Assembly (NCBI GenBank): GCA_024226335.1
Contig: JAAELY010000551.1
Span: 1-37,241 of the forward strand
Length of the DNA: 37,241 bases
Origin: a bacterium
GTDB taxonomy: Bacteria > Myxococcota_A > UBA9160 > SZUA-336
Direction of reading: 5' to 3'
This document shows, piece by piece, positions 14,886-35,017 of the stretch. The translations under genes were made by a program, and so were the position numbers. Positions within the stretch are counted from its first letter, which is position 1; every line of letters starts with the position of its first letter. Below the pieces are notes generated by a model. It worked only from the letters and a program-made list of their open reading frames with translations. It had not been told where the DNA came from and did not search any database.

Positions 14886-16037
14886 CTACGAGATGGACTT
14901 CGCCATGCGCTCGAGCACCTCTGTGAGGATTACCCTCGAGGTCGCGAAATTGACGCGAACGAAGCCCTCTCCGCCCGGACCGAATCTGGGTCCGCTCGAC
15001 AAGCCCACGCGAGCCTGTTTCAGGAAAAACTCGTACGGATCGCCCGGAAGTCCGAGTTCGCGGCAATCGAGCCAGCCCAGGTAGGTAGCTTCCGGTCGTT
15101 GGAATCCGATCCCCGGCATCCGCTCGCGCACGAAATCCTCGATGAAATTCCGATTGCCGTCGAGGTAGGCCAGCACCGAGTTGAGCCATTCATCGCATTG
15201 CGTCCAGGCGATCTCGGTCGCGTGCAGACCGAGCATTCCCAGTCCGCCGCGGATATGTCGAGGAAGAGAGTTGAAGCGAGTCATGAGGGCTTCGCTGCCG
15301 AAAACCGCGACCGCCGTGCGCAGACCCGCAATATTGAACGCTTTGGTTGCGGAAGTTAGTGTGAGAGTACGCGCTTCGATCTCGGGGCGGAGCGAAGCGA
15401 TCGGGATGTGCTCGGAGCCGGCAAAAACAAGGTCGCTGTGAATCTCATCCGAGATTACATACAGATCGTGTTCGATCGCGATCTCGGCCAGTTGTTCGAG
15501 TTCGTCACGTCTGAAGACACGCCCGGTCGGGTTCTGCGGATTGCAGAGCATGAGGACACGTGTACGCGGGTCGATGCTGTTGCGCAGAGCCTCGAAGTCG
15601 ATCTCATAGGCTTTGTCGCCGCGCACCAGTTGGTTGGTGATTTGCCGGCGGCCGACTTCCTCGACGCAATCGATGAATGGGGTATACACAGGAGTCTGTA
15701 TGATGGCTGCCTCGCCGGCTTCGGAAAGCACCCAGAGTCCGATGTACATCCCCTGAACGACGTCAGTCAGGACCTCTACTCGTCGTGGATCGACCTTCCA
15801 GCCCCAGCGTTCCTGGGCCCGGCGAGCGAAAACCGATGGCAATCCCGCCGCGGTGGGATTGTTTGGGTAGCCGATGTCGGTTTCGAGCAGGGCTTCCTTC
15901 AAGTACTGCTCGATGGGCTCGGCAACGCGGAAGTCCATATCGGCGACCCAGGCCGGAATCACGTCGTCAGGGTACCGCTGCCATTTTTCGCCCCGTCGCT
16001 TCCTCAGCTGAGCGATGTCCAGGTCGTCGAAGCTCAT
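14886..16037 (-). CDS. patB: PLP-dependent C-S lyase, MalY/PatB family
   Basis: A 383-residue fold-type I pyridoxal-phosphate enzyme of the MalY/PatB group, which cleaves cystathionine or other cysteine S-conjugates to a thiol, pyruvate and ammonia. The start MSFDDLDIAQLRKRRGEKW and VIPAWVADMDFRVAEPI are diagnostic. PLP-site residues are visible: Tyr118 in TPVYTP, Asn166 in CNPQNPTG, Asp197 in ISDEIH and the Schiff-base Lys232 in SATKAFN. The C-terminal Arg that binds the substrate carboxylate is in GFVRVNFA. The ATG overlaps the addA stop by four bases (ATGA), making it the last tightly coupled member of an addB-addA-patB unit. No mechanistic link with the nuclease is apparent; the coupling may be only transcriptional. 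Whether it is a cystathionine lyase or a conjugate lyase cannot be decided. Confidence 0.9.
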   Translation of the reverse strand: MSFDDLDIAQLRKRRGEKWQRYPDDVIPAWVADMDFRVAEPIEQYLKEALLETDIGYPNNPTAAGLPSVFARRAQERWGWKVDPRRVEVLTDVVQGMYIGLWVLSEAGEAAIIQTPVYTPFIDCVEEVGRRQITNQLVRGDKAYEIDFEALRNSIDPRTRVLMLCNPQNPTGRVFRRDELEQLAEIAIEHDLYVISDEIHSDLVFAGSEHIPIASLRPEIEARTLTLTSATKAFNIAGLRTAVAVFGSEALMTRFNSLPRHIRGGLGMLGLHATEIAWTQCDEWLNSVLAYLDGNRNFIEDFVRERMPGIGFQRPEATYLGWLDCRELGLPGDPYEFFLKQARVGLSSGPRFGPGGEGFVRVNFATSRVILTEVLERMAKSIS

Positions 16038-19000
16038 CCCGCGATTGTACGCTCTTGAAGGCGGACGCGCTCCCCAGTGCGTACGTAGATCAGTTCGAGC
16101 GTTGGCGCCGGGTGATCGGGGAACGCGCGCTGGATGCCTTCCGCATAGGTCTCGAGTTGCGTGCGATAGCGCTCACGTGACGCCGGATCCGGCTGCCGAT
16201 CGGTCTTGTAGTCCGAAATCACGAGATGTCCGTCGGGATCCATATGGAGCAGGTCAAGGGTTCCGCTACAAGCCACGCCGCGGCTGTCCAAAAACAGTAT
16301 GGGTAGCTCTCGCGCGATCACCTCCACTCCTCGCAGGTATTCGGGCAGGTCAGAGGCGAGAAGGGCTTCGAGTGTCTCGGTCGCTTCCCTGCGCAACGCC
16401 TTCGCCTGTCCTGGCTGCCGGGTGTTCTCGGCCGCGATCAGATCGTCGAGGATTACGCGGGCCATGCCGGGGTCCGAGAAGTCCCAGCGTTCGAGCAGCT
16501 GGTGAATGAGATCTCCTACTTCTCGAGCGACCGACGAGCCCCGTCCCGAATTTCGCATCCGCCCGGACGGTGGCGATCCGTCTGGTTGCTCGAGTTCGGC
16601 TTCGCGTTCTTCGCGGATACCTGTTGCGCTGCGAAACGGTACGCGCAGGCTTTCGTGAACCGATGCCGAAATGCTCCTCGCGCGAGATATCGCCGTGTGA
16701 ACATCGATCGTTTCGCCGGGTGGCTCTTCGAGCACGATATCGCTGGTCTCACTCATGTGTTTCGTCAGAACACCTGGCATGTTTGCGAGCGCCTCGTCGG
16801 CGCTCAAGCCGCAGAGCGGATAGCCCCACGGTTGCAGATACTGAACGACGGCGTTCTTGGGCGTGTTCTTGCGGGGAGCGTGAACCAGGATCAAGTTCTC
16901 TTGCGCGCGTGTGCAGGCGACATAGAACAGTCGTTTGCTCTCGGCTGTCTCATGGCGCCGCTCCTCGCGTTGCTGGACGAGCCAGGTCGATGAGCTTCCC
17001 GCCGCAGTCTCGATCGCGAAAGTTCCCAGATCAGGAAGCCACGTCGTCTGCGCGAGAGGCCCAGCCTTTCGCCCCCGGGCCTCTGCGCTGCGGCCGAGGT
17101 CTGGAAGGATGACGGTCGGGAATTCCAAGCCCTTGGCAGCGTGAATACTCATTATGCGCACGGTATTCCCTTCACCGGGGGTACCGCGGCGTCGTCTCAT
17201 ATTTCCGCGTTCGAGCCAGAGAATCAAAGACCTCAGGGTGTGCTCGGGTTCGGCGCGAGCCAGTTCGACGAGTGGATCCAGAACACCTCTCAGAAACGAA
17301 ATTCTCTGAATCCCATCGCCCGCAACCGCTTGCAAGGGAAGCAGCGACGAGTCCCGGATGATCTCGCACAATACCGCATCGATGGGCTGATCCTGTACTC
17401 GTTGGTAGGTACGCTCCAACCAGTCCAGAGTGCGAGTCACGTTCGGGAATTCATCCCGCGCTTCGCAGCGGATCGGATCCTCCAACACATAAGTCCAACT
17501 ACCTCCGGCCCTGGAAAACGCGGCAAGTTCCCGATCGGTTGCGCCGCCAAAAGGCGATCGCAGAACTCCGAGAACTGCGGGTGCATCACCTGGGTTCGCC
17601 AGAGCACGCAACAACGCCCACAGTTGTTGCCCTTCCGGGCGCTCGAGTAGATCACCGCCTGCTTCGACGGAAAAGGCCACTCCGCTTGCGGCCATCGCGC
17701 GAGTGTACGTCTGCAGATTGGCCAGCGATCGGAAGAGAAGCGCGACCTCGCCCGGGCTCTTTCTCCCCGCGCGCGCCTCGGTCGCGATCCAGTCAGCGAT
17801 GGCATCAGCCTCGCTCCTGCGGGCTGTCTCGGCGCGACGAGCCAGTGAAGTATCGCCTACGGTCCAGACCTCGATCCGGGGTCCATCATGGGCAGAGTTC
17901 CGGCCGGATTCCAGCGTCTCGTAACCGGAGTAGGCGTCCTGCTCGTCCGCCGCTCCGGGTTTGAGCAGCGATGGGAACAGCCGATCGAGGGGGTCGAGGA
18001 TCTCCGGCAGCGCGCGCCAACTCGTCGTCAGTTTGAGCTGGCGTCCGCCTGAATCGAGTATGTGGCGCACCGCCCGCTGATAGGCGCGGATGTCGGCACC
18101 TCGAAAGCGGTAGATCGCCTGCTTGGGATCGCCGACGATGAAGAGCTTGCCGGGCGTGAGAGGCTTCGCGAAGGGGTCTGTGTCTGCAGGCCCCGGCCCT
18201 TCTAGCGGTTGTTCAGCCAGGTGGAAAACGATTTCGTACTGAAGCGGATCGGTGTCCTGAAACTCGTCGAGAAAAAGAGTTCGATAGCGCTCACCCAGAA
18301 TACGTCTGATCAGTGGATTCCGGGCGAGCATATCGCGCGTGAGTCGGAGCAGAGCATCGAAAGGCAGAATGTTGCGGCGAATGGCTTCGCTTCGCACGAG
18401 TGCGCCGAAGGGTGTCGCCAGGCGGATTACATCCTTGATCAGCGCATCATCGACCTGGACGAGGCTGCGCAACAGGGAACTCGTTTCCTTCGCGCAGTCT
18501 TCCGCCTCCGGGTTCTTCTTCGATCTGGGTGGCGTGGTTTCGGTCAAGGTTCGCGGTTTCCTGCCACCGTCGTAGAGCGTGGTCGCGATCGCTATTCGAA
18601 AGGCGTCCAGTCCGTTGTCGAGCAGGACACGAAGGACGGGCCGTGCGGTAGACAGGAATTTTTCGGGCCCATTGCTCGGTTCGCCGTCGAACGCGTCGTC
18701 GTTCTTTTCGAGTTGCTCTTCGATCAGAGGTGCGAGGACCCGAACTGTGTCGAGTTCAAGGAGAGGCGAAGTCAGGCTCGGAAGACTGAAACTCGAAAGC
18801 TCGAAGGCCAGGGCCTGGATTTCCGCTAGATCGAGCGATTTCATGACGGATGTCCAGAGTTCAGAAGACTCTCCGTCGGGGCCGTACGAGGACGAAAGGA
18901 ATTCGTGCCAGAGAGAGTTTCGCAGAGAATCGAACTGGAGCCCGTCATCGACACTGAAGTCGGGATCGACACCGGATTCTAGAGGGAACTGTCGCAGGAG

Positions 19001-19402
19001 GGAGGCGCAGTACCCGTGGACGGTCGAGATGCTCGCGTGCGTGAGTTCGGCCTGCCTGCTTTCGGCGCGGTTCAGCAGAGTGTCGGCGGAAACTCGTTCG
19101 CACAGGTAGCCATAGGCGCGATCTGCCTCGCGCTTCAGGTCGAGTTCCGCCGCTGGACGACGCTCCCGCGCGAGTTCGAGGAGTCTTTCCAGGCCGTTCT
19201 CCAGGCGTATGCGCATCTCGGCGGCGGCTTTCTCGGTGAACGTGATGGCCGCGAACTCGGTCGCTGAGAGGTCGGTCTCGATCATCTGATTCAGAACGCG
19301 CTCGACCAGCAAACTGGTTTTCCCCGTGCCGGCTCCGGCAACTACGACCACGTTGAGATCGTACTCGCGGACAGCCGCTTCTCGCGCCTCGGCGTCACTC
19401 AT
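16034..19402 (-). CDS. addA: UvrD/RecB-type helicase-nuclease, AddA-like
   Basis: A protein of about 1122 residues combining an SF1 (UvrD-like) helicase with a C-terminal PD-(D/E)XK nuclease, as in AddA. Walker A is AGAGTGKTS at 22-30, with a Q-motif-like start before it. Walker B is LFLDEFQDTDPLQYEI, and later helicase motifs are VGDPKQAIYRFRGAD, IMSIHAAKGLEFPTVILP and RLFYVACTRAQENLIL. The nuclease has GTLDLLHMDPDG then VISDYKTDRQ, giving the catalytic Asp, Asp and Lys. It would unwind and process double-strand-break ends for RecA loading together with AddB. The frame is open to 19588, but the ATG at 19402 (MSDAEAREAA) precedes the helicase core properly and overlaps addB by eight bases. 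The stop overlaps patB by four bases. Confidence 0.92.
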   Translation of the reverse strand: MSDAEAREAAVREYDLNVVVVAGAGTGKTSLLVERVLNQMIETDLSATEFAAITFTEKAAAEMRIRLENGLERLLELARERRPAAELDLKREADRAYGYLCERVSADTLLNRAESRQAELTHASISTVHGYCASLLRQFPLESGVDPDFSVDDGLQFDSLRNSLWHEFLSSSYGPDGESSELWTSVMKSLDLAEIQALAFELSSFSLPSLTSPLLELDTVRVLAPLIEEQLEKNDDAFDGEPSNGPEKFLSTARPVLRVLLDNGLDAFRIAIATTLYDGGRKPRTLTETTPPRSKKNPEAEDCAKETSSLLRSLVQVDDALIKDVIRLATPFGALVRSEAIRRNILPFDALLRLTRDMLARNPLIRRILGERYRTLFLDEFQDTDPLQYEIVFHLAEQPLEGPGPADTDPFAKPLTPGKLFIVGDPKQAIYRFRGADIRAYQRAVRHILDSGGRQLKLTTSWRALPEILDPLDRLFPSLLKPGAADEQDAYSGYETLESGRNSAHDGPRIEVWTVGDTSLARRAETARRSEADAIADWIATEARAGRKSPGEVALLFRSLANLQTYTRAMAASGVAFSVEAGGDLLERPEGQQLWALLRALANPGDAPAVLGVLRSPFGGATDRELAAFSRAGGSWTYVLEDPIRCEARDEFPNVTRTLDWLERTYQRVQDQPIDAVLCEIIRDSSLLPLQAVAGDGIQRISFLRGVLDPLVELARAEPEHTLRSLILWLERGNMRRRRGTPGEGNTVRIMSIHAAKGLEFPTVILPDLGRSAEARGRKAGPLAQTTWLPDLGTFAIETAAGSSSTWLVQQREERRHETAESKRLFYVACTRAQENLILVHAPRKNTPKNAVVQYLQPWGYPLCGLSADEALANMPGVLTKHMSETSDIVLEEPPGETIDVHTAISRARSISASVHESLRVPFRSATGIREEREAELEQPDGSPPSGRMRNSGRGSSVAREVGDLIHQLLERWDFSDPGMARVILDDLIAAENTRQPGQAKALRREATETLEALLASDLPEYLRGVEVIARELPILFLDSRGVACSGTLDLLHMDPDGHLVISDYKTDRQPDPASRERYRTQLETYAEGIQRAFPDHPAPTLELIYVRTGERVRLQERTIAG

Positions 19403-22382
19403 CCTGAACTCCGTGGAGCGCGAAGTAGTCTCGGAATGCGGTCGCCCCAGTGACTCTCTGCTCACTGGGAGAGTGGTTTTTTCGGCATGCGACTTCGTAC
19501 GCGCAGAACTCGCATTGCAAGCCGCGCCGGAAGGGGAACAGGGCGTCGCGCTGCAATGTGGCGAGCACATCCAGAACCCTCGGAACACACTCTTCTACGT
19601 CGCTCAGAGACAGGCTCGCCCGTTTTGCGCGCTGGTTGTTTCGATCGCGAAGAGGCCAGGGTTCAACGGGCAACGCTTCTCCTGAAACGGTTTCCTTCTC
19701 TTTCACCTGCGCGGTTCCCAGCACGTAGAGCGGCAATTGGAGCACTTCGCCGCGGGCCATGCCTGGTCTTCTCACATAGGACGCGACGTTGGAATTCGAC
19801 TTGTAGTCTCCCATGCGGGTTTCGCCCGAATTCAATGTGAGTACGCGATCGGGAGTGCCTCGTAGATCGAAGCGTCCGGCAGCCGTGTCAAATCCGAAAC
19901 GGATCTCCTGCTCAACGGCCAGTTCGGTCAGGCCATCGGGCAGGAGCGTGGACAGATCACGCTGGCAGAAGTCGTCAGCGGCTTCCATGAGCCTCGTCTT
20001 CAGCGAAGTCCAGACACGCGGGTGTCGTTCGCGAAGGCGCTTGCGCAGTTCCTCGGCGCCCGTCTCGATGGCTTCGGGAAGCAACTCGCGCGCTCGTTCC
20101 AGAGCCCGCTCGGGTGACTCTCCCGGAGCGAGTGCGCCGGTGTCGAAGAGTCTCTGGTACAGGCAAGCCAGTGCACGGTGCAGGAAGCTGCCGCGTTCGC
20201 GTTTCTCGAGTGCGTCCGGCGGAGGGCTCTGGACCTCATGTACGCGCAAGCTACGCGAGAAGAAGGCACTCAACGGGCAACGCCCGAGCATTTCGACGTG
20301 GCTCGGCGAGAAGCGTTCTGGCCTTCGTACCGCATCCGGATCCATCGCGCCGTCGTAGCTCAGGTCTTCTCCGTCGGATTGCTCGACGGCCGCGATCTGC
20401 GCGAGCCCGGCACGTACGGGTGGAACCAGTTCGGTTGCGAATTCGCGGGTGAGATCGAGCAACAACTGGCTGGAGTTCTCGGTTGAGATCCGCGCAATGC
20501 CGCGAACCAGCCCCGAGCCTCTCGCAAGCAGGTCATCCGAATTGCCTTCCGCTTCCGCGTGCTCGACGACCGAGGTTCGCGGGCCGACAAAAGGCAGCGA
20601 GCGCAGAAGCGATGATGGAGCGACCGGACGCCCGGAAGAATCCTCTGATGCCCACGATAGACGCACGCTCATCCGTGCCTGGGAGAGCATCAGTCCCAAC
20701 AGGAAGCGTTCCTCCGCGTCAGCTCGTTTCGCAGTTGGAACGGGTCGCCCCGTTTTCTGGCGCAGTGCTTCGCGCGCAGCGCCGGGCAGGAATGGGTCTT
20801 CGCGGTGCTCGCGCGGCCAATTTCCGTGCGCAAGGCCGACGATCATCAGGTGATCGCAGGGCACGCCTCGGGCCTGCAGCGCGTCGAGCACGCGAACACC
20901 CCCGCAGTCGGCCTCTCTCGGACTCCGTTTCAGGGAACGCAATACTTGCTCCAGCGCTTCGAGCAACTCATCGCGTGTGATGTGGTTCCCGGACTCAGCC
21001 GCCTGATCGGCGTAATCGAGCCCCGCCATTCCTGCGAGTGCTCCCCGTACGTCTGCGTCGATCTGTCGCGTTTCTTCGTCTTCGGGTGGATCGAAGAGGG
21101 CGTCCATCGCGTTCATCAGCCGAATACCGCACTCGGCAAAACTCTTGCTTGCAACAAGCGACGCAGCGGAATCCGCAATCACCTCGAGGGTACTGCCCAG
21201 CGCTTCGAAATCTCCGGGTTCGAAGTCAACACGTTCAGCTTTGGCGATCTGTGCGGCCTGGTCGAGGCCCGCACGCCAGTCGACCATTCCGCGTACCACG
21301 CCCGCGTGTCGCGCCAGGAAGTCGGCGACGATTGGCAGCCGGGATGCGTCTTCGCGCGTCGCGACCAGACGCGTAGAAATGAGCACGCGCAGTGTCGGCG
21401 CGGTTTCGAGTCCCCCGAGCAACGCTTCCGCAAGATCGAGCCAGCGTCGAGCCTCTGGGTGTCGGACGAAAGGCTCGGAAAGCGAAGAGGTGTAGGGAAT
21501 ATCAAATTCCGCAAAAACCGATTCGATCCACGCGGCATGTGTTTCCAGTGAGCGAGCAACGACGCAGATCTGGCCGGGTTGAGTGCCAGTTTCGAACAGG
21601 CGCAGAATTGCCCGGGCAACGGCTTCGATCTCCTCACGCGGACTCGGCGGCGCGCTCACTTGCAAAACGCCATCGGGGATCTCGCCGTCGCGCGACAGCG
21701 CTGGGGTCTCTACGATTTCTACCGACTCGGGCGAGAACTGCCACGGCCAGTTCTCGCGCAGTTCCTCGGCATAGGCGTTGGCCCAGTCGGCCTGAAACAT
21801 GCGCAGCGGCACCTCCTTTGCCAGTGCCTCGACTAAATCCCCTGCAGATCCAACTAGTTCGGTCGCTCCATGGACTTCGACTCCAGCGATGCCCAGTCGG
21901 CGGATCCAGTCTGCAGCACCCCGGCACGCAAGCTGGAAAAGCCCCACTCGCTCGTAGATGCCATCGTTCTGGAGTCGGGCCAGGGTAGCGAGCATGGCTT
22001 CGTACACCTGACGGATTTCGCGCTGCTCAGATGTTAGTTGTTCCGGTCCAACGCCCGCGTCATACAGGTCGCGCAGTGACGCAGATAGAGCGCCGGCCAG
22101 TCCCGGTCGGCTGTCGAGCAGCCTGCCGAGGCTGCGACTCGCCGATGCACAGTGCCGTACGATTCGCTCGAACCCGTTCTGGTCGAGCAGGTTGCTAATT
22201 CCTACGCCTGTTTCGGCGGCGCAATGTTCCGCGACGCCGCGAAGGTTGAGAAAGTGGCGGCCGAGAAGGACGCCATCGGGAGAAGCGCGTAGCGCTGCGA
22301 GTCGTCTTTCGCGAAGCACGCGAGTAGACGAGGCGATTTCCAGCACACGCTGGATGGCTCCCGATTCACCCCCCATGCTCAC
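19395..22382 (-). CDS. addB: AddB-like helicase/nuclease subunit (PD-(D/E)XK, Fe-S)
   Basis: A protein of about 995 residues that fits the AddB/RecC-like partner of AddA. The N-terminal part is a degenerate helicase without a clear Walker A. The middle holds VLDALQARGVPCDHLMIVGL, a helicase-remnant motif typical of the family. The C-terminal nuclease has RGTPDRVL and MGDYKSNSN (catalytic Asp, Asp, Lys). A Fe-S cluster is suggested by a Cys in LGRCPLSAFF plus the terminal CEFCAYEVAC (C-x2-C-x5-C), as in AddB nucleases. Two starts are possible, GTG at 22382 and ATG at 22376; GGGAG lies about eight bases from the GTG. The gene sits upstream of addA with an eight-base overlap, the order expected for an addBA operon. 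Function in break resection is inferred from family and context. Confidence 0.88.
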   Translation of the reverse strand: MSMGGESGAIQRVLEIASSTRVLRERRLAALRASPDGVLLGRHFLNLRGVAEHCAAETGVGISNLLDQNGFERIVRHCASASRSLGRLLDSRPGLAGALSASLRDLYDAGVGPEQLTSEQREIRQVYEAMLATLARLQNDGIYERVGLFQLACRGAADWIRRLGIAGVEVHGATELVGSAGDLVEALAKEVPLRMFQADWANAYAEELRENWPWQFSPESVEIVETPALSRDGEIPDGVLQVSAPPSPREEIEAVARAILRLFETGTQPGQICVVARSLETHAAWIESVFAEFDIPYTSSLSEPFVRHPEARRWLDLAEALLGGLETAPTLRVLISTRLVATREDASRLPIVADFLARHAGVVRGMVDWRAGLDQAAQIAKAERVDFEPGDFEALGSTLEVIADSAASLVASKSFAECGIRLMNAMDALFDPPEDEETRQIDADVRGALAGMAGLDYADQAAESGNHITRDELLEALEQVLRSLKRSPREADCGGVRVLDALQARGVPCDHLMIVGLAHGNWPREHREDPFLPGAAREALRQKTGRPVPTAKRADAEERFLLGLMLSQARMSVRLSWASEDSSGRPVAPSSLLRSLPFVGPRTSVVEHAEAEGNSDDLLARGSGLVRGIARISTENSSQLLLDLTREFATELVPPVRAGLAQIAAVEQSDGEDLSYDGAMDPDAVRRPERFSPSHVEMLGRCPLSAFFSRSLRVHEVQSPPPDALEKRERGSFLHRALACLYQRLFDTGALAPGESPERALERARELLPEAIETGAEELRKRLRERHPRVWTSLKTRLMEAADDFCQRDLSTLLPDGLTELAVEQEIRFGFDTAAGRFDLRGTPDRVLTLNSGETRMGDYKSNSNVASYVRRPGMARGEVLQLPLYVLGTAQVKEKETVSGEALPVEPWPLRDRNNQRAKRASLSLSDVEECVPRVLDVLATLQRDALFPFRRGLQCEFCAYEVACRKNHSPSEQRVTGATAFRDYFALHGVQDE

Positions 22383-22844
22383 CCCAGAAACTCCCAGAAA
22401 CGCGTCGTTGCGCCGCCGAGACTACCACGACATGAGAATCGAACGAATACCTCGTTTCGGTCGCGATTCGTCTTGACACACCGACGCTGTCGGCGCACAG
22501 TTTAGGTGTCGATCGAGGCCGGGACGGGGAGGAATGAGGTACTCGTCCTGAAGACAAGATCGCGTTTCGGTCAATCGATCGATGGAACGTCGACAGGGCG
22601 AGTGAGCGGGTGCTCCGGGGGACCACCGGGAGCGTCAATACTGGCCAGGAGGGCCGGCGGCAATAGACCTGATGGCGCGCATTTTCTGAACGCGGCATGT
22701 CGTCTGCTGCGATTGCGCGGCGACCCACAGGCGCTCGTCGACCACATCTTCCGCCCCTATACCAAACGGCGAAATGCCGGGCGGCGGTCGGTGACTCTTG
22801 CAGCCCAAAGGTTCCGAGGTTGAGTATCTTCGGCGCCCGCAGCC
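22383..22844. other. 460-bp intergenic region upstream of addB
   Basis: No convincing gene is seen. It lies between the ycaQ stop and the addB start, both on the minus strand, so it should carry the addBA promoter. A 10-bp-spaced direct repeat of CCCAGAAA is at 22383-22400 next to the addB start. Short inverted repeats lie at about 22482-22494 (CCGAC/GTCGG) and 22609-22630 (GCTCC/GGAGC core), neither with a T-run. A forward frame from 22506 to 22823 is open, but its composition looks like a chance GC-rich frame. Confidence 0.45.
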
Positions 22845-24230
22845 TCAATCCCCGTGACCCTTCACAACGGGTCTTGCACTGGGTTTTGCATTCCCGGCAG
22901 GTCGCTTTCTCGCTGCTCCCTTCGCCGTCCATCCTTTCGGCCAGCGAACCTGCTCTGCGCCGATCTGTTCGGCGAAACGTTCCGTTGCTTCGTGCAACGC
23001 TCGCCGTCTCGTCTGTGTCGGTTTGATTCCGGCCTCCCACCACACCCTGCGCACCTCCAGCGTTCCCTGATCGCGGTGGAATTTCGGGTCCACGCGGCCG
23101 ATCAGGCGATCGCCTTCGAGCAGAGGCATCACGTAATAGCCGAAGCGACGTTTGGACTCGGGAACGAAGGCTTCGAAAGCGTATTCGAAGTCGAAGAGGC
23201 GGAGGGTTCGCTGACGATCGCGAATTGCTGGATCGAAGGGATTGAGCAGGCGGATGCGCCTGGGCGCATCCGCCAGGCGCGCCGCTCTGCGCTTCCAATC
23301 GGGTTTTGCGATCGCCTTGCGCGATTTGCTTCCGTCCGCTGAGGCCAACTCGACTTCGATCACCTCGCCTGTCGCGGTCGCCTCTTTGCACCAGCGCCGT
23401 GCCGAATCGATTCCGATGGCCAGCCAGAACTGCTGCAACTCCCTGGGGGTTGCGATCACAAGCCGCTCGAGCGCTTCCCGGCAGGCCCAGTCGAGGTGCC
23501 CGTCTTGTGAAGGCGGGGGTTGCTCGTGATGTTCCGGTAGCCAGCGCGAGCTGAGTTCGTAGACCTTCTGAAAACTGGTGCGAGCCGAGATCGACAACTC
23601 GCCGATGCGCCACAGGTATTCGAGTGCGGCTTTTTGCGGCTTCCAGTTCCACCAACCCTCGCCTCGCTCTTTCGTTCGCGCGCTCTTCACCTCTTCGAAG
23701 TCCCGGCTCATCAAAGGGCCTTCCTTTTCGATGCGCTCGAGTACATGTTCGATGACCCGATTCGCATTGCGGCCGATCTTGCGCAACGCCCAGCTCTGTA
23801 GCCGATGATCGGGCTGCTTGGCGCGTTCGAATCGATATCTCCATTGCGGATACAGCCCGATCGGAATGATCGAGGCGTCGTGAGTCCAGTGCTCGAAGAG
23901 CGTGCGCTCGCGTTCGAGCAAACGCGTCAGCGTCGCGGGTCGGTAGCGATCGAAGCGCGTGAGCAAGATGTGCTGGTGGGCGCGCTCGACTGTGTTGATC
24001 GTGTCGACCTGTACGAACCCCATTCGTTCGATCTGTTTCAGAACCCGCGCCGCACTCGCAGGCCGATCGGGATCCTCGAGAAGGCCCGCGCCACCCAGGA
24101 GCAAGTGGCGTGCGGTCTCGGCGGGTATGATGGGAGGGGCGGCCTTCACGCGCTCATTGGAGCTTGTGCGGGATTTCAGCGCAAGTCGCGGTCCGGGCCT
24201 CTTTCCTGCGCGGTTCTCAGCGGAAGTCAT
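22845..24230 (-). CDS. ycaQ: YcaQ-family winged-helix DNA glycosylase
   Basis: A 461-residue protein of the YcaQ/AlkX-like winged-helix (HTH_42) superfamily, whose studied members unhook interstrand crosslinks and remove bulky alkylated bases. The hallmark QxD motif is present as VQVDTINTVERAHQHIL, with Gln74 and Asp76. Further family features are FEHWTHDASIIPIGLYPQWR, VYELSSRWLPE, and NPFDPAIRDRQRTLRLFDFEY with YVMPLLEGDRLIGRVDPK. The C-terminus is a Lys/Arg-rich tail that could bind DNA. Its ATG at 24230 lies inside the last codons of dnaE2 (14-base overlap), so the two are translated from one message. Repair of crosslinks or bulky adducts alongside translesion synthesis is the natural reading, but the coupling itself is the evidence, not an experiment. 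Confidence 0.88.
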   Translation of the reverse strand: MTSAENRAGKRPGPRLALKSRTSSNERVKAAPPIIPAETARHLLLGGAGLLEDPDRPASAARVLKQIERMGFVQVDTINTVERAHQHILLTRFDRYRPATLTRLLERERTLFEHWTHDASIIPIGLYPQWRYRFERAKQPDHRLQSWALRKIGRNANRVIEHVLERIEKEGPLMSRDFEEVKSARTKERGEGWWNWKPQKAALEYLWRIGELSISARTSFQKVYELSSRWLPEHHEQPPPSQDGHLDWACREALERLVIATPRELQQFWLAIGIDSARRWCKEATATGEVIEVELASADGSKSRKAIAKPDWKRRAARLADAPRRIRLLNPFDPAIRDRQRTLRLFDFEYAFEAFVPESKRRFGYYVMPLLEGDRLIGRVDPKFHRDQGTLEVRRVWWEAGIKPTQTRRRALHEATERFAEQIGAEQVRWPKGWTAKGAARKRPAGNAKPSARPVVKGHGD

Positions 24231-27200
24231 GTGAAGGGGGCATGCGCGTGGTGTTGTCTTCGCGATCGAGTCGTTCGAAGCGCCTCGCCTTTACGTGGAT
24301 CACGCCTTCTTGATTCTGTACCGAGCCCTCGATCAGCAGGAGACCCGCACTCTGGATCAGGCGGCGGTTCTGATGAAACAGATCGGGCAGGACGACCGCA
24401 TTCGAAGTGCCCGTCTCGTCTTCGAGCGTGATGAAAAGAAATCCTTTAGCCGTGCCCGGGCGTTGGCGGACGATGACTGCGCCCGCGATCCTGGCCCAGC
24501 GACCGTCGGGAACCGAACGCAGTTCGCGCGCAGTCAGTACGCCGCGAGCCTTCAGTTGCTCGCGGAAGTGCGACATCAGATGCTCGCCCGTAGTCAGGCC
24601 GGATCCTCGATAGTCTGCCAGGGTTTCTTCGTACTTCGTCATGGGTGTGAGCGGAGAGGGCGTGTCGGATGTGGCGCCGGATAGCAGTCCGCCCTGGAGT
24701 GCAGCGATCTGCCACAAGGCTTCGCGTCGTTCGAGTCCGAGGCTGGCACAGGCGCCGACTTCGGACAGGCACTCGAGTTCGTCGCGATGCAACTGTGCGC
24801 GATGTGCGAGATCGCCGATGGATTCGAATGGCGACTCTGCTGCAATGCGCTCACCCGCATCTGCACGCAATCCGTCGACATAGCGCAAACCCAGGCGCAC
24901 TTTCTTGTCGTCGGTGATGTGACACAACCAGTCGCTTTCCTGAACATCGATCGGAAGCATGCGCACGCCGTGATGCTGGGCGTCTTTGACCAGCGAAGCC
25001 GGACTGTAGAAGCCCAGTGGATAGTTGTTGAGCATGGCTGTGAGAAAGCACTCGAAGTGGTGTGCCCGGATATAGGCCGATGCGTATGCGAGCAATGCGA
25101 AGCTGGCGGCGTGACTCTCGGGAAAACCGTAGAGTGCGAACGATCCGATATGGCGTTCGATCTCGTCCTGCGCTTCGAGGCCAATGCCGCGCTCGCTCAT
25201 GCCCGCTCGCAAGCGTTCCATGATCGCGCCCATGCGTTCGACCGAGCGCTTGAAGCCCATGGCGCGGCGCAGTTCTTCGGCTTCTCCACCACTGAATCCC
25301 GAGATATCCATGGCCATGCGCAGGAGTTGCTCCTGGAACAGCGGAACGCCCAGCGTGCGCTTCAGAATCGGTTCGAGTGAAGGATGCGCATAGGTGACGG
25401 GTTCGCGGCCCGCGCGTCTCTTGAGATAGGGGCGCACCATATCGCCGGAGATCGGGCCCGGACGGATGATGGCGACCTCTACTACCAGATCGTAGAAGGT
25501 GCGCGGTTTCATGCGCGGGAGCGTTGCCATCTGGGCGCGGCTTTCTACCTGGAACACGCCCATCGTGTCGGCACGTTGCAGCCACTCAAACGTCTTGGGA
25601 TCGTCCGGTGGAATCTTCGCCAGGTCGACGTCGGCACCGTCGTGCGTGCGCACTAGTGGAATCACATCCTCGAGCACCGCCATCATTCCCAGGCCGAGTA
25701 GATCGATCTTGATGATGCCCAGATCCGCGCAATCGTCTTTGTCCCACTGGATAACCGTGCGGTTGGCCATGCGTGCCGGTTCGACTGGAACGACTTCGTC
25801 GAGTCGCCCGCGCGCGATTACCATGCCACCGGAGTGTTGACCCAGATGGCGTGGCAGATTCTGGATCTCGTGTATCAGACGCACCAGTTGGCGCACGCGC
25901 GGAGCGTCCGGATTCACGCGCGCATTCCTGATCTGTTCCTCGAGTGCTTCGCGATCGTCGATGAATTCGTGGCGCGACAAGAGCCTGGCCAGGCGGTCGA
26001 TCTGTTCGGGCGCAAAGCCCAGGACCTTGCCCATTTCACGCACCGCGCTCTTGGGGCGATAGGTGATCACATTGGCCGTCATGCCCGCGCCGTGCGGACC
26101 GTAAGTCTGGTAGACGTATTGAAGGATTTCCTCGCGGCGATCCCCCGAAGGCAGATCGATGTCGATGTCGGGCCATTCTCCGCGTTCTTCGGACAGGAAG
26201 CGTTCGAACAGCAGTTCATAACCGACCGGATCGATTGCAGTAATGCCGAGCGCGTAGCACACCAGGCTATTGGCGGCCGAACCGCGTCCCTGACACAGGA
26301 TCCCGCGAGCACGGCATTCGCGCACGATGTCCCAGACGATCAGGAAGTAGCCCTCGAGTTCGAGCTTGCGGATCATGGCGAGTTCTTTGTCGAGTTGCGC
26401 GCGCACCCTCGCCGAAAGAACCCCGCTGCCGTAACGCTCGCGTGCACCCTGTTCCGACAGACTTCGCAGCAGGCCGGGCAATGTCTCGCCCGGTCCGAGC
26501 GGAAAATCGGGAAACGTGTAGCCCAGATTTTCGAGTGTGAAGTCGCACGACTCGGCGACTCGCAGAGTATTGAGCAGCGCCTCGGGCAGGTCGCTGAAGC
26601 GCTGCGCGATTTGTTCGGGAGCGCGCAGGTGGCGTTCGGCATTGGGCAGGAGCAGACGTCCCGCTTCGTCGAGTCGCGTCTTGTGATGCAGGCAGGTGAG
26701 TGCGTCCAGTAGTCGTTTCCCGGCGGGTCGCGCGTGGCGCACATCACCGGTGGCGAGCGGTGGGAGTTTCGTGGCCAATAGCTTGCGATTCAAACGCTCT
26801 TCCAGCGGATCGCAGTGTCGCCAGATCTCCGCAAAGGCTTCGTCTCCGAAGATCTCCTGGACATCCTTTGCGATCTCTGGCTTGCGCACCACTGCGAGCA
26901 GTCCGTCGGCGTGCTCGCGCAGTTGCTCGAGCGTGACGCGACACCAGGGCTTTTCGAACGAGCCGTGTCCCAGCGTCAGCAGGCGACTCAGATTGCGATA
27001 GCCGGCGCGGTTCTTCACGTAAAGCGTGACGCGGCCCTGTTCGGGCGGTGGATCTGACTTGCGTCGCCGCTGGCCTGCGCCCAGTAGCGCGATGCGCGAG
27101 CCGACGATCGCCCTTACGCCCAGCTCTCGTGCCTTTTTGTGAAAGCGCGGGAGCCCGTACAGACCGTTTACGTCCGCCAGCGCCAGCGCGCCGTGTCCGA

Positions 27201-27309
27201 GTTCGGCCGCGCGTTCCACGAGATCTTCGGGGGGCGAACTCGATTCGAGAAAGCTGAAGGCGCTGCGAGTGCCTAGTTCTATGTAAGGTGGGGAGGGGGA
27301 GGGCGGCAT
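24217..27309 (-). CDS. dnaE2: Error-prone DNA polymerase DnaE2 (ImuC)
   Basis: A C-family DNA polymerase of about 1030 residues. Length and motifs match DnaE2/ImuC, the damage-inducible translesion polymerase, rather than replicative DnaE1. The N-terminal PHP domain (YIELGTRSAFSFLE, ALALADVNGLYGLPRF) has lost the usual HxH and DH metal ligands. Active-site aspartates are in PDIDIDLPSGDRREEI and IIKIDLLGLGMM. The regions GRGSAANSLVCYALGIT and PESHAASFALLAYASAY are strong family markers. A C-terminal OB domain (FLFITLEDETGTSNAVV) follows. The frame is open to 27357; the ATG at 27309 is preferred because homology begins just after it. It is first in a two-gene unit with ycaQ. Partner ImuB is encoded about 5.8 kb away, and no imuA is visible. 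Confidence 0.93.
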   Translation of the reverse strand: MPPSPSPPYIELGTRSAFSFLESSSPPEDLVERAAELGHGALALADVNGLYGLPRFHKKARELGVRAIVGSRIALLGAGQRRRKSDPPPEQGRVTLYVKNRAGYRNLSRLLTLGHGSFEKPWCRVTLEQLREHADGLLAVVRKPEIAKDVQEIFGDEAFAEIWRHCDPLEERLNRKLLATKLPPLATGDVRHARPAGKRLLDALTCLHHKTRLDEAGRLLLPNAERHLRAPEQIAQRFSDLPEALLNTLRVAESCDFTLENLGYTFPDFPLGPGETLPGLLRSLSEQGARERYGSGVLSARVRAQLDKELAMIRKLELEGYFLIVWDIVRECRARGILCQGRGSAANSLVCYALGITAIDPVGYELLFERFLSEERGEWPDIDIDLPSGDRREEILQYVYQTYGPHGAGMTANVITYRPKSAVREMGKVLGFAPEQIDRLARLLSRHEFIDDREALEEQIRNARVNPDAPRVRQLVRLIHEIQNLPRHLGQHSGGMVIARGRLDEVVPVEPARMANRTVIQWDKDDCADLGIIKIDLLGLGMMAVLEDVIPLVRTHDGADVDLAKIPPDDPKTFEWLQRADTMGVFQVESRAQMATLPRMKPRTFYDLVVEVAIIRPGPISGDMVRPYLKRRAGREPVTYAHPSLEPILKRTLGVPLFQEQLLRMAMDISGFSGGEAEELRRAMGFKRSVERMGAIMERLRAGMSERGIGLEAQDEIERHIGSFALYGFPESHAASFALLAYASAYIRAHHFECFLTAMLNNYPLGFYSPASLVKDAQHHGVRMLPIDVQESDWLCHITDDKKVRLGLRYVDGLRADAGERIAAESPFESIGDLAHRAQLHRDELECLSEVGACASLGLERREALWQIAALQGGLLSGATSDTPSPLTPMTKYEETLADYRGSGLTTGEHLMSHFREQLKARGVLTARELRSVPDGRWARIAGAVIVRQRPGTAKGFLFITLEDETGTSNAVVLPDLFHQNRRLIQSAGLLLIEGSVQNQEGVIHVKARRFERLDREDNTTRMPPSHDFR

Positions 27310-27407
27310 CGGGGAAGTCGAGTTTCGTATTTTGTTCGCCCTGATGTCAAGCACCACTCGTCCGCACCACCGCCCTTGGCTGGTTGCCGCAGATCGCGTA
27401 TCAACAA

Positions 27408-27425
27408 GAACTCGGAATCGAGTTC
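27408..27425. promoter_or_regulatory. Perfect dyad, candidate operator between dnaE2 and carbonic anhydrase
   Basis: The sequence GAACTCGGAATCGAGTTC is a perfect 7-bp inverted repeat around a 4-base spacer. It lies about 44 bases before the carbonic anhydrase ATG and about 100 bases before the dnaE2 ATG, in the divergent intergenic region. Such symmetry is typical of a dimeric repressor site, and dnaE2 is commonly LexA-controlled. It does not exactly match the LexA boxes I know (GAAC-N4-GTTC or direct GTTC-N7-GTTC), so the regulator is unassigned. Confidence 0.45.
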
Positions 27426-27469
27426 ATGAGCCTGCAACGAAAAACAGCTAGATCTCGCACGGAGCGTCG

Positions 27470-28111
27470 ATGAGCACCGCACTTGAAGCTCTCGAACGCC
27501 TGCGTGACGGAAATCAACGCTTTGTCTCGAGCGTTCGGGGTCACGAGTCATTCACGAGTCAGACTCATTCCAGTGGCCTGGCGGCGAGCAAGGAACCGTT
27601 CGCCATCATTCTGGGGTGTTCCGACGCGCGTGTTCCGGCGGAAATCGTCCTTGACCAGGGGCTGGGTGATCTGTTCGTCATCCGGGTCGCTGGGAACATC
27701 GTGGCGCCTTCCCAGATCGGCAGCGTCGAGTACGCCGCTTCGAGGTACGGAACGCGACTGGTGGTGGTTCTGGGGCATTCCAGCTGCGGCGCCGTTCAGG
27801 CCACTCTGGAAACACTTCAGCAGTCGCTAGAGAGCCAGTCGCGCAACATACATTCGATCGTCGATCGCATTCGGCCAGCGCTGGAGCCGTTGCTGAAGAC
27901 AGAACTCAAGCATGATCCGGACGAACTCGAGCGTCAGGCGGTTCGGGCCAATATCAGCGCATCCGCCAGCCAACTGCGGCACGGATCGGAGATTCTGGAG
28001 GAAATGATCCAGACCGCGGGACTTCTGGTCATCGGTGCCGACTACTCGCTCGAGACCGGGTTCGTCGACTTTTTCGACGGAGTACCGGAGTCTTTTGGCG
28101 GGCGGTCGTAG
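27470..28111 (+). CDS. Beta-class carbonic anhydrase
   Basis: A 213-residue beta-carbonic anhydrase, interconverting CO2 and bicarbonate. The zinc site is complete: Cys50 in ILGCSDARVPAE with the Asp52-Arg54 pair, His103 and Cys106 in GHSSCGAV. The VIRVAGNIV stretch and the late segment GLLVIGADYSLETGFVDFF are family features. No signal peptide is seen, so it is cytoplasmic. The ATG at 27470 follows GGAGCG eight to twelve bases upstream. It is divergent from dnaE2 and is followed on the same strand after about 60 bases by a GFA-family gene, with which it may be co-transcribed. Physiological roles include bicarbonate supply for carboxylases and pH balance; nothing here picks one. Confidence 0.95.
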   Translation: MSTALEALERLRDGNQRFVSSVRGHESFTSQTHSSGLAASKEPFAIILGCSDARVPAEIVLDQGLGDLFVIRVAGNIVAPSQIGSVEYAASRYGTRLVVVLGHSSCGAVQATLETLQQSLESQSRNIHSIVDRIRPALEPLLKTELKHDPDELERQAVRANISASASQLRHGSEILEEMIQTAGLLVIGADYSLETGFVDFFDGVPESFGGRS

Positions 28112-28174
28112 ACGAGCCAGTCTTCGGCCCGATCCTGAATTTTGAGGTGTCGGCTGGGCGGAGAAGGAACGACG

Positions 28175-28588
28175 ATGGCGAGCAAGATCTACGGATACTG
28201 TCTGTGCGGCCAGATCACCTATGAGTACGGCGGTTCGGTCGGCCCGGCGGGTTACTGTCATTGCGAGGATTGTCGACGTTGCACCGGTAGTGCCTTCAAT
28301 ATCAGTGTTCGCTTCGATCTCTCCGAGTTTCACATAACAAGTGGCAGTCCAAGAGGGCTCACGAAACGCGGAGATAGCGGCAATGAGCTCACGCGCTTCT
28401 TCTGCCCGGAATGTGGATCTCCCATCTACACGGCATCTCCGACGCATCCGCGCCAGGTGTACGTAAAAGCCGGCACCCTCGACGATCCGAAGGCCGTCCA
28501 GCCGGCCCGCCAGGACTGGGTTGCGTCAGTCGTGCCCTGGAGCCGGATCGATCTGGACATCGACAGCTTCGCAGGGGGCGGGGAATAG
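28175..28588 (+). CDS. GFA/CENP-V-type zinc protein
   Basis: A 137-residue protein of the GFA family (glutathione-dependent formaldehyde-activating enzyme-like, CENP-V fold). Zinc ligands are visible in YCLCGQITYEY (Cys9, Cys11), GYCHCEDCRRCTG (Cys28, Cys30, Cys33) and RFFCPECGSPIY. The name overstates knowledge: most family members have no proven glutathione activity. The frame begins at 28142, but the ATG at 28175 is preceded by GGAGAAGGA at good spacing and starts where homologues start. It is the middle of a same-strand trio after carbonic anhydrase and before a WapI-like gene. A second, distinct GFA gene lies at 35018. Confidence 0.88.
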   Translation: MASKIYGYCLCGQITYEYGGSVGPAGYCHCEDCRRCTGSAFNISVRFDLSEFHITSGSPRGLTKRGDSGNELTRFFCPECGSPIYTASPTHPRQVYVKAGTLDDPKAVQPARQDWVASVVPWSRIDLDIDSFAGGGE

Positions 28589-28642
28589 CATGCAGGGCAT
28601 CCTTCCCCGAGCGGAAACGGCCAGATCTGCGGTCCTCGTGTG

Positions 28643-29086
28643 ATGGAACGCGATCCCGATTTCATGGTGGCCCTGCTCAAGGTCTGGGTTTGCGGGCGAC
28701 AGTTTGCTGATTCTCAAGACTACTTGGACGGAAACAGGCTGCGGGTCAGCGCGGAGTGCGGCGACTCCGGAACGATCGTGAAGACGGAGGGACCGTTTCT
28801 CCATCTCGGCGATGTCGCGAAATTCCTGGGCGAATGCGAGGTACTCCACCAGGAGTCCCGAGGAGTCGCCCGACTCCGCACCACCGGCCCCAATCTCGCA
28901 GCTTCACTCGAAGCGAGCGATTCGATCGGCGGAATCGAGGCCAGTATCCAGATCACTTCCGAGCACCCCGTAAAAGAGCACTCGTTCACGTTCGCCATCG
29001 ATCAGAATCACCTGCCCTACATCATTCGAGGACTGAAGGCGGTACTGGATCAATACCCCATCCGCGGTCGTCCAGCGCAGGCTTGA
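28643..29086 (+). CDS. WapI-family immunity-like protein
   Basis: A 147-residue soluble protein with the pattern DYLDGNRLRVSAECG, a long amphipathic middle, and the closing FAIDQNHLPYIIRGLKAVLDQYPIRG. This layout resembles the WapI-type immunity family, whose characterised prototype protects Bacillus subtilis from the WapA contact-dependent toxin; the tail FxxDQxxLPxxIxxLxxxLxxYPxRG is the strongest match. I see no toxin, Rhs repeat or other immunity gene nearby, so this is an orphan and may have another role. Start choice is between GTG 28640, ATG 28643 and ATG 28664. It follows the GFA gene by about 50 bases and may share its transcript. Confidence 0.55.
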   Translation: MERDPDFMVALLKVWVCGRQFADSQDYLDGNRLRVSAECGDSGTIVKTEGPFLHLGDVAKFLGECEVLHQESRGVARLRTTGPNLAASLEASDSIGGIEASIQITSEHPVKEHSFTFAIDQNHLPYIIRGLKAVLDQYPIRGRPAQA

Positions 29087-29147
29087 TCTTCAAGCCGCAC
29101 CGCGATGCCCAGGCCGTGGTGGTTTCGACCGGGGTCGACCGTTCGAA

Positions 29148-30551
29148 TCAGAGTTTGCGAAGGGTTTCGAACTCCTCTTCGATCGCCAGTACGAACTCGT
29201 GCAGATCTGGTACTGCGTTCCAGTCTCCATTGAAGCCCCAGTAGAGACCGCCGTCGTAGCTGAAGAGCGCGACCCCCAGCGCCTGGTTCTCGTAGAGCGG
29301 TACCAGCGGATAGCTTCCGAGCATGCGCGCGCCGTTCAGGTAGATGGGGAACTGGGGTCCCGGGACGTTGGTGACGACGAGGTTGAAGCTGCGACGAGCC
29401 GAGGACAGTCGAGTGAAACTCGTGAGCAATCCGCTCGCCGTCCAGTCGCTGAGTTCCTCGAGCATTTCAGTGCCTTTGGCCTGACCGGAGTTCTTCAGTC
29501 CCCGAGTTTCTTCTACAACCGCCATGAGGCGCTTCTGCGGATCCTCCTCACCCACGGGCAGGGAAGCGAAGAGCATCGAGACGCGATTCCCGAGCTTGCC
29601 GTGTTCCTCGTCGGAACGGGTGCTCACGGGGATGAAGGCACGGAAGTCGATGCCATCCAGAGCTACACCGCGGTCTGAGAGGAAGCGGCGCACACCACCG
29701 GCGACGCACGCGAGGACGACGTCGTTGATCGTCGCACCGGCTTTGTCCTTCACCTCCCGAACGATGCCAAGGTCGAAGCGAGTCCAGTCGAAGCGTCGGT
29801 GCGGGCCGATTGGGACATTGAAAGGCGTATCCGAGGCGGGAGTGATGGCTTTCCCCAGTCCCTCGACGAATCCCGAGACTGCGTGCGAGACCTCGTCGTA
29901 CGTCTGCCCGGGATTGCGAAGTGCATTGACAGCACCGGAGAGCGCCCGCCCGGGGATCGACGCGCGCCGTCGGAGTTCACCACCCAGAAGTGCCAGAGGG
30001 CCGGGTACGGGTCGCGGCATCCAACGCGAGTGGCTGCGCTCGGCGCGGTACTCCTCGTCGATTCCCATGAAAGCCGAAAGCAGATCCACACCTGAAACTC
30101 CATCGATCAGGCTGTGATGCACTTTGGATATGACGGCAAGTCGTCCGTTCTCCAGACCCTCGACGAACCAGAGTTCCCAGAGCGGCTTCTCTCGCTCCAG
30201 CTTCTGCGACATGATGCGTCCCGCCAGTCGCTTGAGCTGTCGCTCCGTACCGGGAAGCGGGAGGGCGGTGTGACGAACGTGGTAGGTCAGATTGAAGTGC
30301 GCGTCGTCGACCCACACGGGATGCCCCGAAATCGGCGCGCGTGCGAGCTTCTGGCGAAAACGCGGTGTGCGCGCGAGCCCGGCCTCGGTGAGAACCAGGA
30401 CCCGCTCGAAATCGAGCCCGCCTTCTTCGTCGGCCAGGGGCCCAGGATCGAAGATCCCCACGGAGCCCACGTGCATGTGCACACCCGGAGTCTCCAGGTC
30501 GAGGAAGGCCGAATCGAGTGCAGTCAACCGGTCGTAGTGTGTATACGCCAC
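29148..30551 (-). CDS. Wax ester synthase/diacylglycerol acyltransferase (WS/DGAT)
   Basis: A 467-residue acyltransferase that joins acyl-CoA to a fatty alcohol or diacylglycerol, making wax esters or triacylglycerol storage lipid at the inner membrane. The catalytic HHxxxDG motif is HHSLIDG at 145-151. Other family blocks are the start YDRLTALDSAFLDLETP, EREKPLWELWFVEGL, GATINDVVLACVAGGVRRFL (the ND motif) and FNLVVTNVPGPQFPIYLNGA. The length is standard and no active-site residue is missing, so it should be functional. It is transcribed convergently to the WapI-like gene, with about 60 bases between stops, and has a long upstream gap. Lipid storage of this type is common in actinobacteria, marine gammaproteobacteria and myxobacterial relatives. 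Confidence 0.93.
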   Translation of the reverse strand: MAYTHYDRLTALDSAFLDLETPGVHMHVGSVGIFDPGPLADEEGGLDFERVLVLTEAGLARTPRFRQKLARAPISGHPVWVDDAHFNLTYHVRHTALPLPGTERQLKRLAGRIMSQKLEREKPLWELWFVEGLENGRLAVISKVHHSLIDGVSGVDLLSAFMGIDEEYRAERSHSRWMPRPVPGPLALLGGELRRRASIPGRALSGAVNALRNPGQTYDEVSHAVSGFVEGLGKAITPASDTPFNVPIGPHRRFDWTRFDLGIVREVKDKAGATINDVVLACVAGGVRRFLSDRGVALDGIDFRAFIPVSTRSDEEHGKLGNRVSMLFASLPVGEEDPQKRLMAVVEETRGLKNSGQAKGTEMLEELSDWTASGLLTSFTRLSSARRSFNLVVTNVPGPQFPIYLNGARMLGSYPLVPLYENQALGVALFSYDGGLYWGFNGDWNAVPDLHEFVLAIEEEFETLRKL

Positions 30552-31004
30552 CGCCTGGTCCTCCTAACGTGACCGCCTCGGGAAGGTCGTCGGAGCGCCA
30601 CGTTGGACTTGGGGAAACAAGAACCCGTTGACCAGAGTGCAATGCGCGTACCGGATTCGAAGGCGCTTTAGCGGGTCTTGAAGCGAGTCACCCACAGAAG
30701 TGCGTCATTTTTTCCCAGGCTGGATCAGAACTACAGGAAGTTGGAATTTCTCCTCATCGGCCGAGAGAAGTCCTGCCCCCGGCGACCTGGCTAGCCTAGC
30801 CTGGTCGAGAGGCGCCTGAGCAAGCGTTGGATCGGGTAGCGCTCGGGGTCGGCGCTGCGCAGTTCGACGAGCAGACACGAGAAGTACTGTGGGGAATTCG
30901 TTGCAACTGCAAGCGGAGCCGTCCAGACTGTCCTGGTGCAGGTAGAAGCCGGGACACGAACTCTGGGATCGGGTACGCAGCCATGCGTTAGGCGGGTTTC
31001 CGCA
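30552..31004. other. 450-bp region between divergent WS/DGAT and exported-protein genes
   Basis: No gene is supported. Frames open on either strand (for example a minus-strand one at 30705-31418) have biased composition and no recognisable motif. The region should contain the promoter of the WS/DGAT gene to the left and of the IPTL-CTERM-like gene to the right. A GC palindrome (GGCTAGCC) lies near 30790. I cannot identify promoter hexamers with confidence. Confidence 0.35.
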
Positions 31005-31850: not shown

Positions 31851-31859
31851 GCGCCTGCG

Positions 31860-32285: not shown

Positions 32286-32338
32286 ACCAGGAGCATATCG
32301 CAGTCATCGGGGACAGGGAGTGAGAGGAAAGAGCCCGT

Positions 32339-32404
32339 TATACTCTGGGTCGGGAGCACTGAGGGGAGCCCGATGCGTCGGGCCGCATCTGAGGAGGGCA
32401 GTAC
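32339..32404 (+). promoter_or_regulatory. dcd leader: -10-like box, hairpin and Shine-Dalgarno
   Basis: A TATACT hexamer at 32339-32344 matches a sigma-70 -10 box, but I see no good -35 at normal spacing. A perfect 6-bp stem (GCCCGA / TCGGGC, loop TGCG) occupies 32368-32383. GAGGAGG at 32391-32397 is a strong ribosome-binding site eight bases before the GTG start of dcd. Confidence 0.4.
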
Positions 32405-32962: not shown

Positions 32963-32975
32963 TCCGACCTAGTCC
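32956..32975. repeat. 10-bp tandem duplication over the dcd stop
   Basis: The unit GACCTAGTCC occurs twice head-to-tail. The first copy contains the TAG stop codon of dcd, so the second is outside the gene. It looks like a recent slippage duplication at the start of a region that also holds a broken gene. Confidence 0.75.
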
Positions 32976-33036
32976 GAAGTGCAGACGAGATCCGTCTCGA
33001 TTGAACGGCTCGGTGTCGCTTCGCGAAAGGCTGTGT

Positions 33037-34741: not shown

Positions 34742-35017
34742 TTAGAAATTCCCTGTGAATGAACCTCTGGCCAGGGAAGGACCGGGATGCGCGCAAACTT
34801 CTACGGAACTCGCTGGTGCGGGGAGTGGAGAGTCGGGGGGATTGGCGCCGGCCTTTCTGCCTGAACTCTCCGACGGTAGTTTCGCCTTTATTTCGCCTAC
34901 TCGTCAAGTCCGATTTTCGACCTGCAAGCACTCCGGTAGACTCGTTTCACGTCCCCCCCCTAAAAAAATACCGCGCCCGCGTGTCCGCCAGCGGGTCGCC
35001 TCCAATCGGAGTCCTCC
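34742..35017. other. Divergent intergenic region, imuB / GFA gene
   Basis: This 276-bp stretch separates minus-strand imuB from the plus-strand GFA gene and should hold both promoters. A run of eight C (34953-34960) followed by T and seven A (34962-34968) is the only low-complexity tract. A half-site GAACTCG occurs near 34807, the same heptamer as one arm of the dyad upstream of dnaE2, but without its mirror half. I find no imuA fragment on the minus strand here. Confidence 0.4.

Follow-up and report, generated by a model that had tools for sequence, protein, structure and literature searches.

Does the overlap of dnaE2, the gene for an error-prone translesion polymerase, with ycaQ, the gene for a DNA glycosylase acting on interstrand crosslinks, reflect a dedicated repair module, or has one gene come to lie behind the other in a single lineage? 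We addressed this question in a contiguous stretch of 37,241 nucleotides, referred to as the window, in which the two genes and their junction are placed as follows.

24217..27309, minus strand: dnaE2 (imuC), error-prone DNA polymerase (NF004225; Pfam PF07733, PF17657, PF02811, PF14579)
22845..24230, minus strand: ycaQ/alkX-type interstrand-crosslink DNA glycosylase, with an alternative start at GTG 24149 (PF06224, QVD motif, PDB 9ZD6)
24217..24230, minus strand: ATGACTTCCGCTGA, the 14 bases common to the 3' end of dnaE2 and the longest ycaQ frame (sequence reading)

In a profile search, DnaE2 scored 1209 bits against NF004225 ('error-prone DNA polymerase'), for which the cut-off is 939. The AlkZ-like/HTH_42 domain was found to span most of the window's YcaQ, the sole PF06224 match in the genome, with the AlkZ-like profile covered from position 1 to 328 of 329 (E 2.5e-64, 218 bits). 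The catalytic motif Q-phi-D distinguishes the YcaQ/AlkX branch from AlkZ-type enzymes, which have Q-phi-Q (PMC7367128). In the window's protein this motif is Q74-V75-D76; its Q and D were invariant in an alignment of eight homologues, and it aligned with the QID motif of 9ZD6, the accession for the solved AlkX structure (PMC13303869), which matched YcaQ with an E value of 1.7e-43. The gene is intact and the catalytic residues are all present. Judged from what is known of the family, the product is predicted to be a typical YcaQ-like glycosylase, with N7-alkylpurine cleavage and crosslink unhooking as its activities.

The initial annotation had reported that ycaQ starts inside the end of dnaE2, and the overlap was reproduced when the longest frames were read. 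Both genes lie on the minus strand and have the 14 bases ATGACTTCCGCTGA (24217..24230) in common; the minus-strand sequence of the junction is CGCATGCCCCCTTCACATGACTTCCGCTGAGAACCGC, the C-terminus of DnaE2 reads ...SHDFR-TGA with the stop at 24217, and the longest YcaQ frame opens at ATG 24230. This ATG is embedded in the codons CAT-GAC of the conserved DnaE2 tail. Of six family members read, four have the tail SHDFR and two a related one, and where the codons are CAT-GAC or CAT-GAT an ATG arises with or without a downstream gene; relatives G006 and G002 carry an identical CATGA at the end of dnaE2 and no ycaQ there. Since the ATG belongs to a conserved DnaE2 tail, the true start of ycaQ could be the in-frame GTG 24149, in which case the genes would not overlap but be separated by 67 nt. 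The N-terminal ~28 residues of the long YcaQ frame are absent from most homologues, only the YcaQ of G063 having a loosely similar N-terminal extension, and no clear Shine-Dalgarno sequence precedes either ATG 24230 or GTG 24149. Because the start codon is uncertain, we regard translational coupling of dnaE2 and ycaQ, from the sequence, only as possible. An overlap of such short length is ordinary in bacterial operons.

We then considered dnaE2 together with its mutasome partners. The genome encodes all three components, at three places instead of in a single cassette: the window has dnaE2 and imuB, apart from each other, and imuA is on contig C240.

33134..34741, minus strand: imuB, Y-family polymerase-like mutasome protein (PF00817, E 1.5e-11)

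The window's ImuB is 57-64% identical to the products of those relatives' imuB genes that adjoin dnaE2. The statement of the initial annotation that imuA and imuB are the usual neighbours of DnaE2 is true of the family insofar as imuB lies directly upstream of dnaE2 in G007, G006, G002 and G010, but it does not describe the window, where 5.8 kb separate dnaE2 from the upstream imuB and where imuA is missing, being on a different contig. The interval between imuB and dnaE2 (27470-33000) holds carbonic anhydrase, GFA-type enzyme, WapI-like, WS/DGAT, HpiC1-like and dCTP deaminase genes, and these split an imuB/dnaE2 cassette that is contiguous in several relatives. A perfect inverted repeat, GAACTCGATTCCGAGTTC (27425-27408), was also seen in the interval that separates dnaE2 from the divergently oriented carbonic anhydrase gene and was considered as a LexA site or a terminator.

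Comparison of the sequences upstream of the mutasome genes revealed a strictly spaced motif, TTGAC-N7-CGAA-N7-CGAAA. The 5.75-Mb genome contains exactly three exact copies, each before one of the three scattered genes.

27323..27350, minus strand: promoter/operator-like motif before dnaE2 (exact match)
34880..34907, minus strand: the same motif before imuB (exact match)
G000 C240:41995-42022 (L169): the same motif before imuA (exact match)

The start of dnaE2 is probably ATG 27309 rather than GTG 27357, because the conserved motif (27350-27323) falls inside the longer GTG frame. Across 11 genomes of the family, all 14 exact copies precede imuA (6), imuB (5) or dnaE2 (3) in the same orientation. 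When the scan was extended to 379 genomes of the phylum, ~288 of them outside the class, 33 exact copies were found within the class, 30 of which stand before imuA, imuB or dnaE2 by BLAST and one more by reading of the N-terminus. The other ~288 genomes yielded only three exact copies, none before mutasome genes, and a reversed control pattern yielded five in all 379 genomes. Since the start codon often lies about 8-20 nt downstream, the motif probably includes the core promoter, with TTGAC as the -35 element, combined with a direct-repeat operator and short leaders. No earlier description of the motif was found in the searchable literature, outside of which most subscription journals lie, and the class-wide mutasome motif is provisionally regarded as new.

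The relation of this motif to LexA was also considered. It was absent before the genome's own lexA. The M. xanthus SOS box (CTRHAMRYBYGTTCAGS) had only one match with two mismatches in the window, at 2813, which is at chance level, and none near the mutasome genes; with no SOS box nearby, LexA control of the M. xanthus type at these genes is unsupported. The sequence GAACAAAATACGAAA inside the dnaE2 motif is one of many near-matches to direct-repeat LexA sites, and direct-repeat LexA control of dnaE2 is a possible reading of it. A CGAA-N7-CGAAAC repeat occurs shortly before addB; it has no TTGAC element, and no such repeat was seen ahead of addB in G002; for these reasons addBA were dropped as members of the regulon.

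Is ycaQ, then, expressed from the dnaE2 promoter? No copy of the motif precedes ycaQ, no terminator-like site above chance was found at the dnaE2-ycaQ junction, and a consensus scan of 22300-27600 detected no sigma-70-like promoter, a scan which also misses the mutasome promoter itself. Since neither the motif nor a promoter-like or terminator-like site lies before ycaQ, the simplest assumption is that transcription reads through from the dnaE2 promoter, and co-transcription of the two genes appears likeliest, although a promoter of a type outside the consensus scan could lie within the 3' part of dnaE2. The proposal that both genes come from one transcript, probably with coupled translation, is therefore retained in part: the shared strand, the overlapping or near ends and the lack, at the junction, of any promoter-like site and of terminator-like sites exceeding chance speak for a single transcript, but the uncertain start codon does not allow the coupling to be upheld.

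The initial annotation had further suggested that the two genes form a functional pair, and had named confinement of the pair to one genome as an outcome that would speak against this. Joint searches for both families identified 104 other genomes of the phylum that have both genes (35 relatives and 69 more across the phylum), and dnaE2 and ycaQ were adjacent in none of them; in a few of these dnaE2 runs off the contig end, and adjacency is excluded less directly there. In a tally of the first 35 genomes the two genes were almost always on different contigs, and the nearest case on one contig (G293) had them ~52 kb apart. DnaE2 was likewise not found beside YcaQ at any of the 80 YcaQ loci that best matched the query, which belonged to Acidobacteriota, Planctomycetota, Alphaproteobacteria, Myxococcota and a few others and were read with flanks of up to 6 kb (shorter at contig ends), nor did a concatenated DnaE2+YcaQ query find the two side by side among 72,556 plasmids. 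The genus itself is represented by one genome, the window's own. The phylum is probably Myxococcota, since G053, a genome of the same class, has a YcaQ identical to that of locus L123 and the YcaQ of G044 is identical to that of L097, and both loci group with Myxococcota. A search of the accessible papers for work joining YcaQ and DnaE2 found none beyond DnaE2 in one reference title. The pair was thus confined to one genome in every sample examined, and the suggestion of a recurring module was not borne out. Nor does ycaQ have a conserved genomic neighbourhood: it lies elsewhere in relatives, and the dnaE2 neighbourhood is unique to the window's genome. The dnaE2-ycaQ pair is best read as a single natural variant, probably a gene capture in a single lineage, and not as a module.

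How ycaQ came to this position could be read from the genes that flank it, which in relatives adjoin each other without it.

22500..22844, minus strand: ancestral element between dnaE2 and addB, with conserved counterparts in G002, G007 and G009 (sequence comparison)
19395..22382, minus strand: addB-like nuclease/helicase subunit (PD-(D/E)XK; PF12705, synteny with relatives)
16034..19402, minus strand: addA-like UvrD-family helicase-nuclease (PF00580, PF13361, PF12705; synteny)

The addB-like gene scored below the cut-offs of TIGR03623 and the AddB models, and the addA-like gene below those of the AddA models. The order imuB-dnaE2-addB(-addA), with no ycaQ at the site, was found in G002, G006 and G007, and G009 has dnaE2-addB-addA-aminotransferase, also with no ycaQ at the site and with imuB off the contig. 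A spacer of ~340 nt is conserved between dnaE2 and addB, with counterparts at L065:1117-1456, L061:8420-8780 and L062:3395-3760 and conserved blocks that include TTTGACGYCCCCGG and CCGGAGCACCCG. In G002 about 20 nt separate the dnaE2 stop from the spacer; in the window it is the ycaQ stop that the spacer follows, with no gap. The position of ycaQ is therefore precisely where dnaE2 ends, between the dnaE2 stop codon and the ancestral spacer towards addB. The spacer was tried as a structured RNA and rejected, having no Rfam match and folding no better than shuffles (z 0.78), and we treat it only as a marker of conserved synteny. The linkage imuB-dnaE2-addB-addA, which joins the mutasome to AddB/AddA-like double-strand-break repair genes at the level of the family (L061, L062, L063, L065), predates the insertion of ycaQ.

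Other sequence occupies the same dnaE2-addB junction in G009 (~0.4 kb) and G007 (~1.6 kb), which suggests that the junction tolerates inserts. In relatives G005, G009 and G002, ycaQ is on a different contig. In the tree, the window's YcaQ pairs with that of G063, a member of another family (100/97 support, 60% identity), while the copies of G005 and G009 from its own family group together and the G002 copy is far away; this topology points to transfer or differential loss as the origin of the window's ycaQ. The GC/GC3 contents of ycaQ (61.8/70.8%) equal those of dnaE2 (61.7/70.8%), so there is no compositional sign of a recent foreign origin.

Overall, these results make it probable that a one-off insertion placed ycaQ at the 3' end of dnaE2, where read-through would have captured it for the motif-marked mutasome regulon. 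According to this reading, ycaQ would have been inserted once, in the window's lineage, exactly behind dnaE2, and would owe its transcription to read-through from dnaE2, whose promoter bears the motif. Judging from the genes that the motif precedes and from M. xanthus, in which DnaE2 is induced by mitomycin C (PMC12288472), this promoter may respond to DNA damage, and glycosylase and translesion polymerase would be produced together. As expected from its family, YcaQ would remove N7-alkylpurines and unhook crosslinks, leaving AP sites, sometimes on both strands, and DnaE2-ImuB might, more speculatively, copy past the remaining lesion. In E. coli, neither mechlorethamine nor MMS induces ycaQ, and its expression looks constitutive (PMC7367128); damage control is thus no requirement of the family, and such control here would be a departure. 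We are rather doubtful of a bolder version, that a mutasome regulon with a class-specific motif, apart from the LexA/RecA genes, recruited a crosslink glycosylase in one lineage and so made a damage-induced unhook-and-bypass operon.

Whether selection built the pair is a separate matter. A selected unhook-and-bypass module would have YcaQ cut one arm of a crosslink or an N7 adduct, giving an abasic site opposite the adduct that DnaE2-ImuB would copy past, with one transcript balancing both enzymes. The chemistry would suit this: the unhooking reaction of YcaQ yields monoadducts and AP sites, the latter at times in both strands with a risk of double-strand breaks, and excess YcaQ is toxic in E. 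coli via AP sites (PMC7367128), so that matched expression could matter; translesion polymerases and the downstream AddAB-type genes could handle such products, and the glycosylase has kept its complete catalytic residues. However, the survey of 104 genomes, 80 YcaQ loci and plasmids gave no second instance, the addB side retains its own conserved spacer, and G007 and G009 have other inserts at the same site. Random placement would moreover yield such a pair in 105 genomes with a chance of ~1-2%, which is not small enough for a pairing picked out post hoc. Such a module is unlikely, and we favour an accident of placement or a mild benefit over it. It is somewhat easier to accept, though still improbable, that the two genes are fortuitous neighbours, with ycaQ driven by a promoter of its own within dnaE2 or having a separate start, constitutive as in E. 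coli, and overlapping dnaE2 only through annotation; the ATG built into the dnaE2 tail codons and the 67-nt gap that GTG 24149 would give fit this reading. Against it, no promoter-like site was found, within the limits of the scan, and ycaQ abuts dnaE2 with no space for a normal intergenic promoter. The arrangement is unique and the assembly is in 556 contigs with an estimated contamination of 3.73%, so an artefactual joining of unrelated stretches in a metagenome bin was considered as well. The two flanks of ycaQ nevertheless form one ancestral locus, with dnaE2 on one side and the spacer, addB, addA and the aminotransferase gene on the other in the relatives' order, and the GC content of ycaQ matches that of dnaE2. 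A chimera would require two joins within 1.4 kb that restored the synteny; the intact synteny on both flanks argues against mis-assembly, which we consider very improbable.

With single-lineage capture as the preferred reading, the dnaE2-ycaQ pair drops off the list of candidate repair systems, and greater value attaches to the class-wide mutasome motif. The mutasome genes of this class, even when scattered, share a motif that is nearly exclusive to them within the genome. In Myxococcus, the control of ImuB that is independent of LexA and DdiA has been stated to be unidentified (PMC12288472), and so clean a motif offers a direct handle for finding the regulator in the window's class. If ycaQ is under the motif, this genome would also be a natural test of whether unhooking coupled to error-prone bypass helps or harms.

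The LexA box of Alphaproteobacteria is the direct repeat GAAC-N7-GAAC. The mutasome motif resembles it in being a direct repeat with the same N7 spacing and an A-rich centre, but its half-site is CGAA(A), it is locked to a TTGAC element, and it was not found before lexA. Likewise, the LexA-independent, DdiA-dependent control of dnaE2 in M. xanthus (PMC12288472), an organism probably of the same phylum, is comparable in that dnaE2 and imuAB are controlled at least partly apart from classical LexA; it differs in that the motif is absent before the mutasome genes in the sampled genomes of the phylum's other classes. The window's YcaQ resembles E. coli YcaQ and T. fusca AlkX (PDB 9ZD6) in its AlkZ-like/HTH_42 fold family, its Q-phi-D motif and its full length, and is encoded by a single copy in the genome. 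In contrast to E. coli ycaQ, which is in a putative operon with msbA and lpxK, it is encoded behind dnaE2, and it differs also from the YQL genes of Streptomyces, whose own near-invariant neighbourhood is not a requirement of the enzyme family (PMC7367128, PMC9040887). Compared with the ImuA-ImuB-DnaE2 cassette, the window's genome has all three genes and one common promoter motif, but the genes are scattered to three locations, and the dnaE2 arm carries a glycosylase gene in addition.
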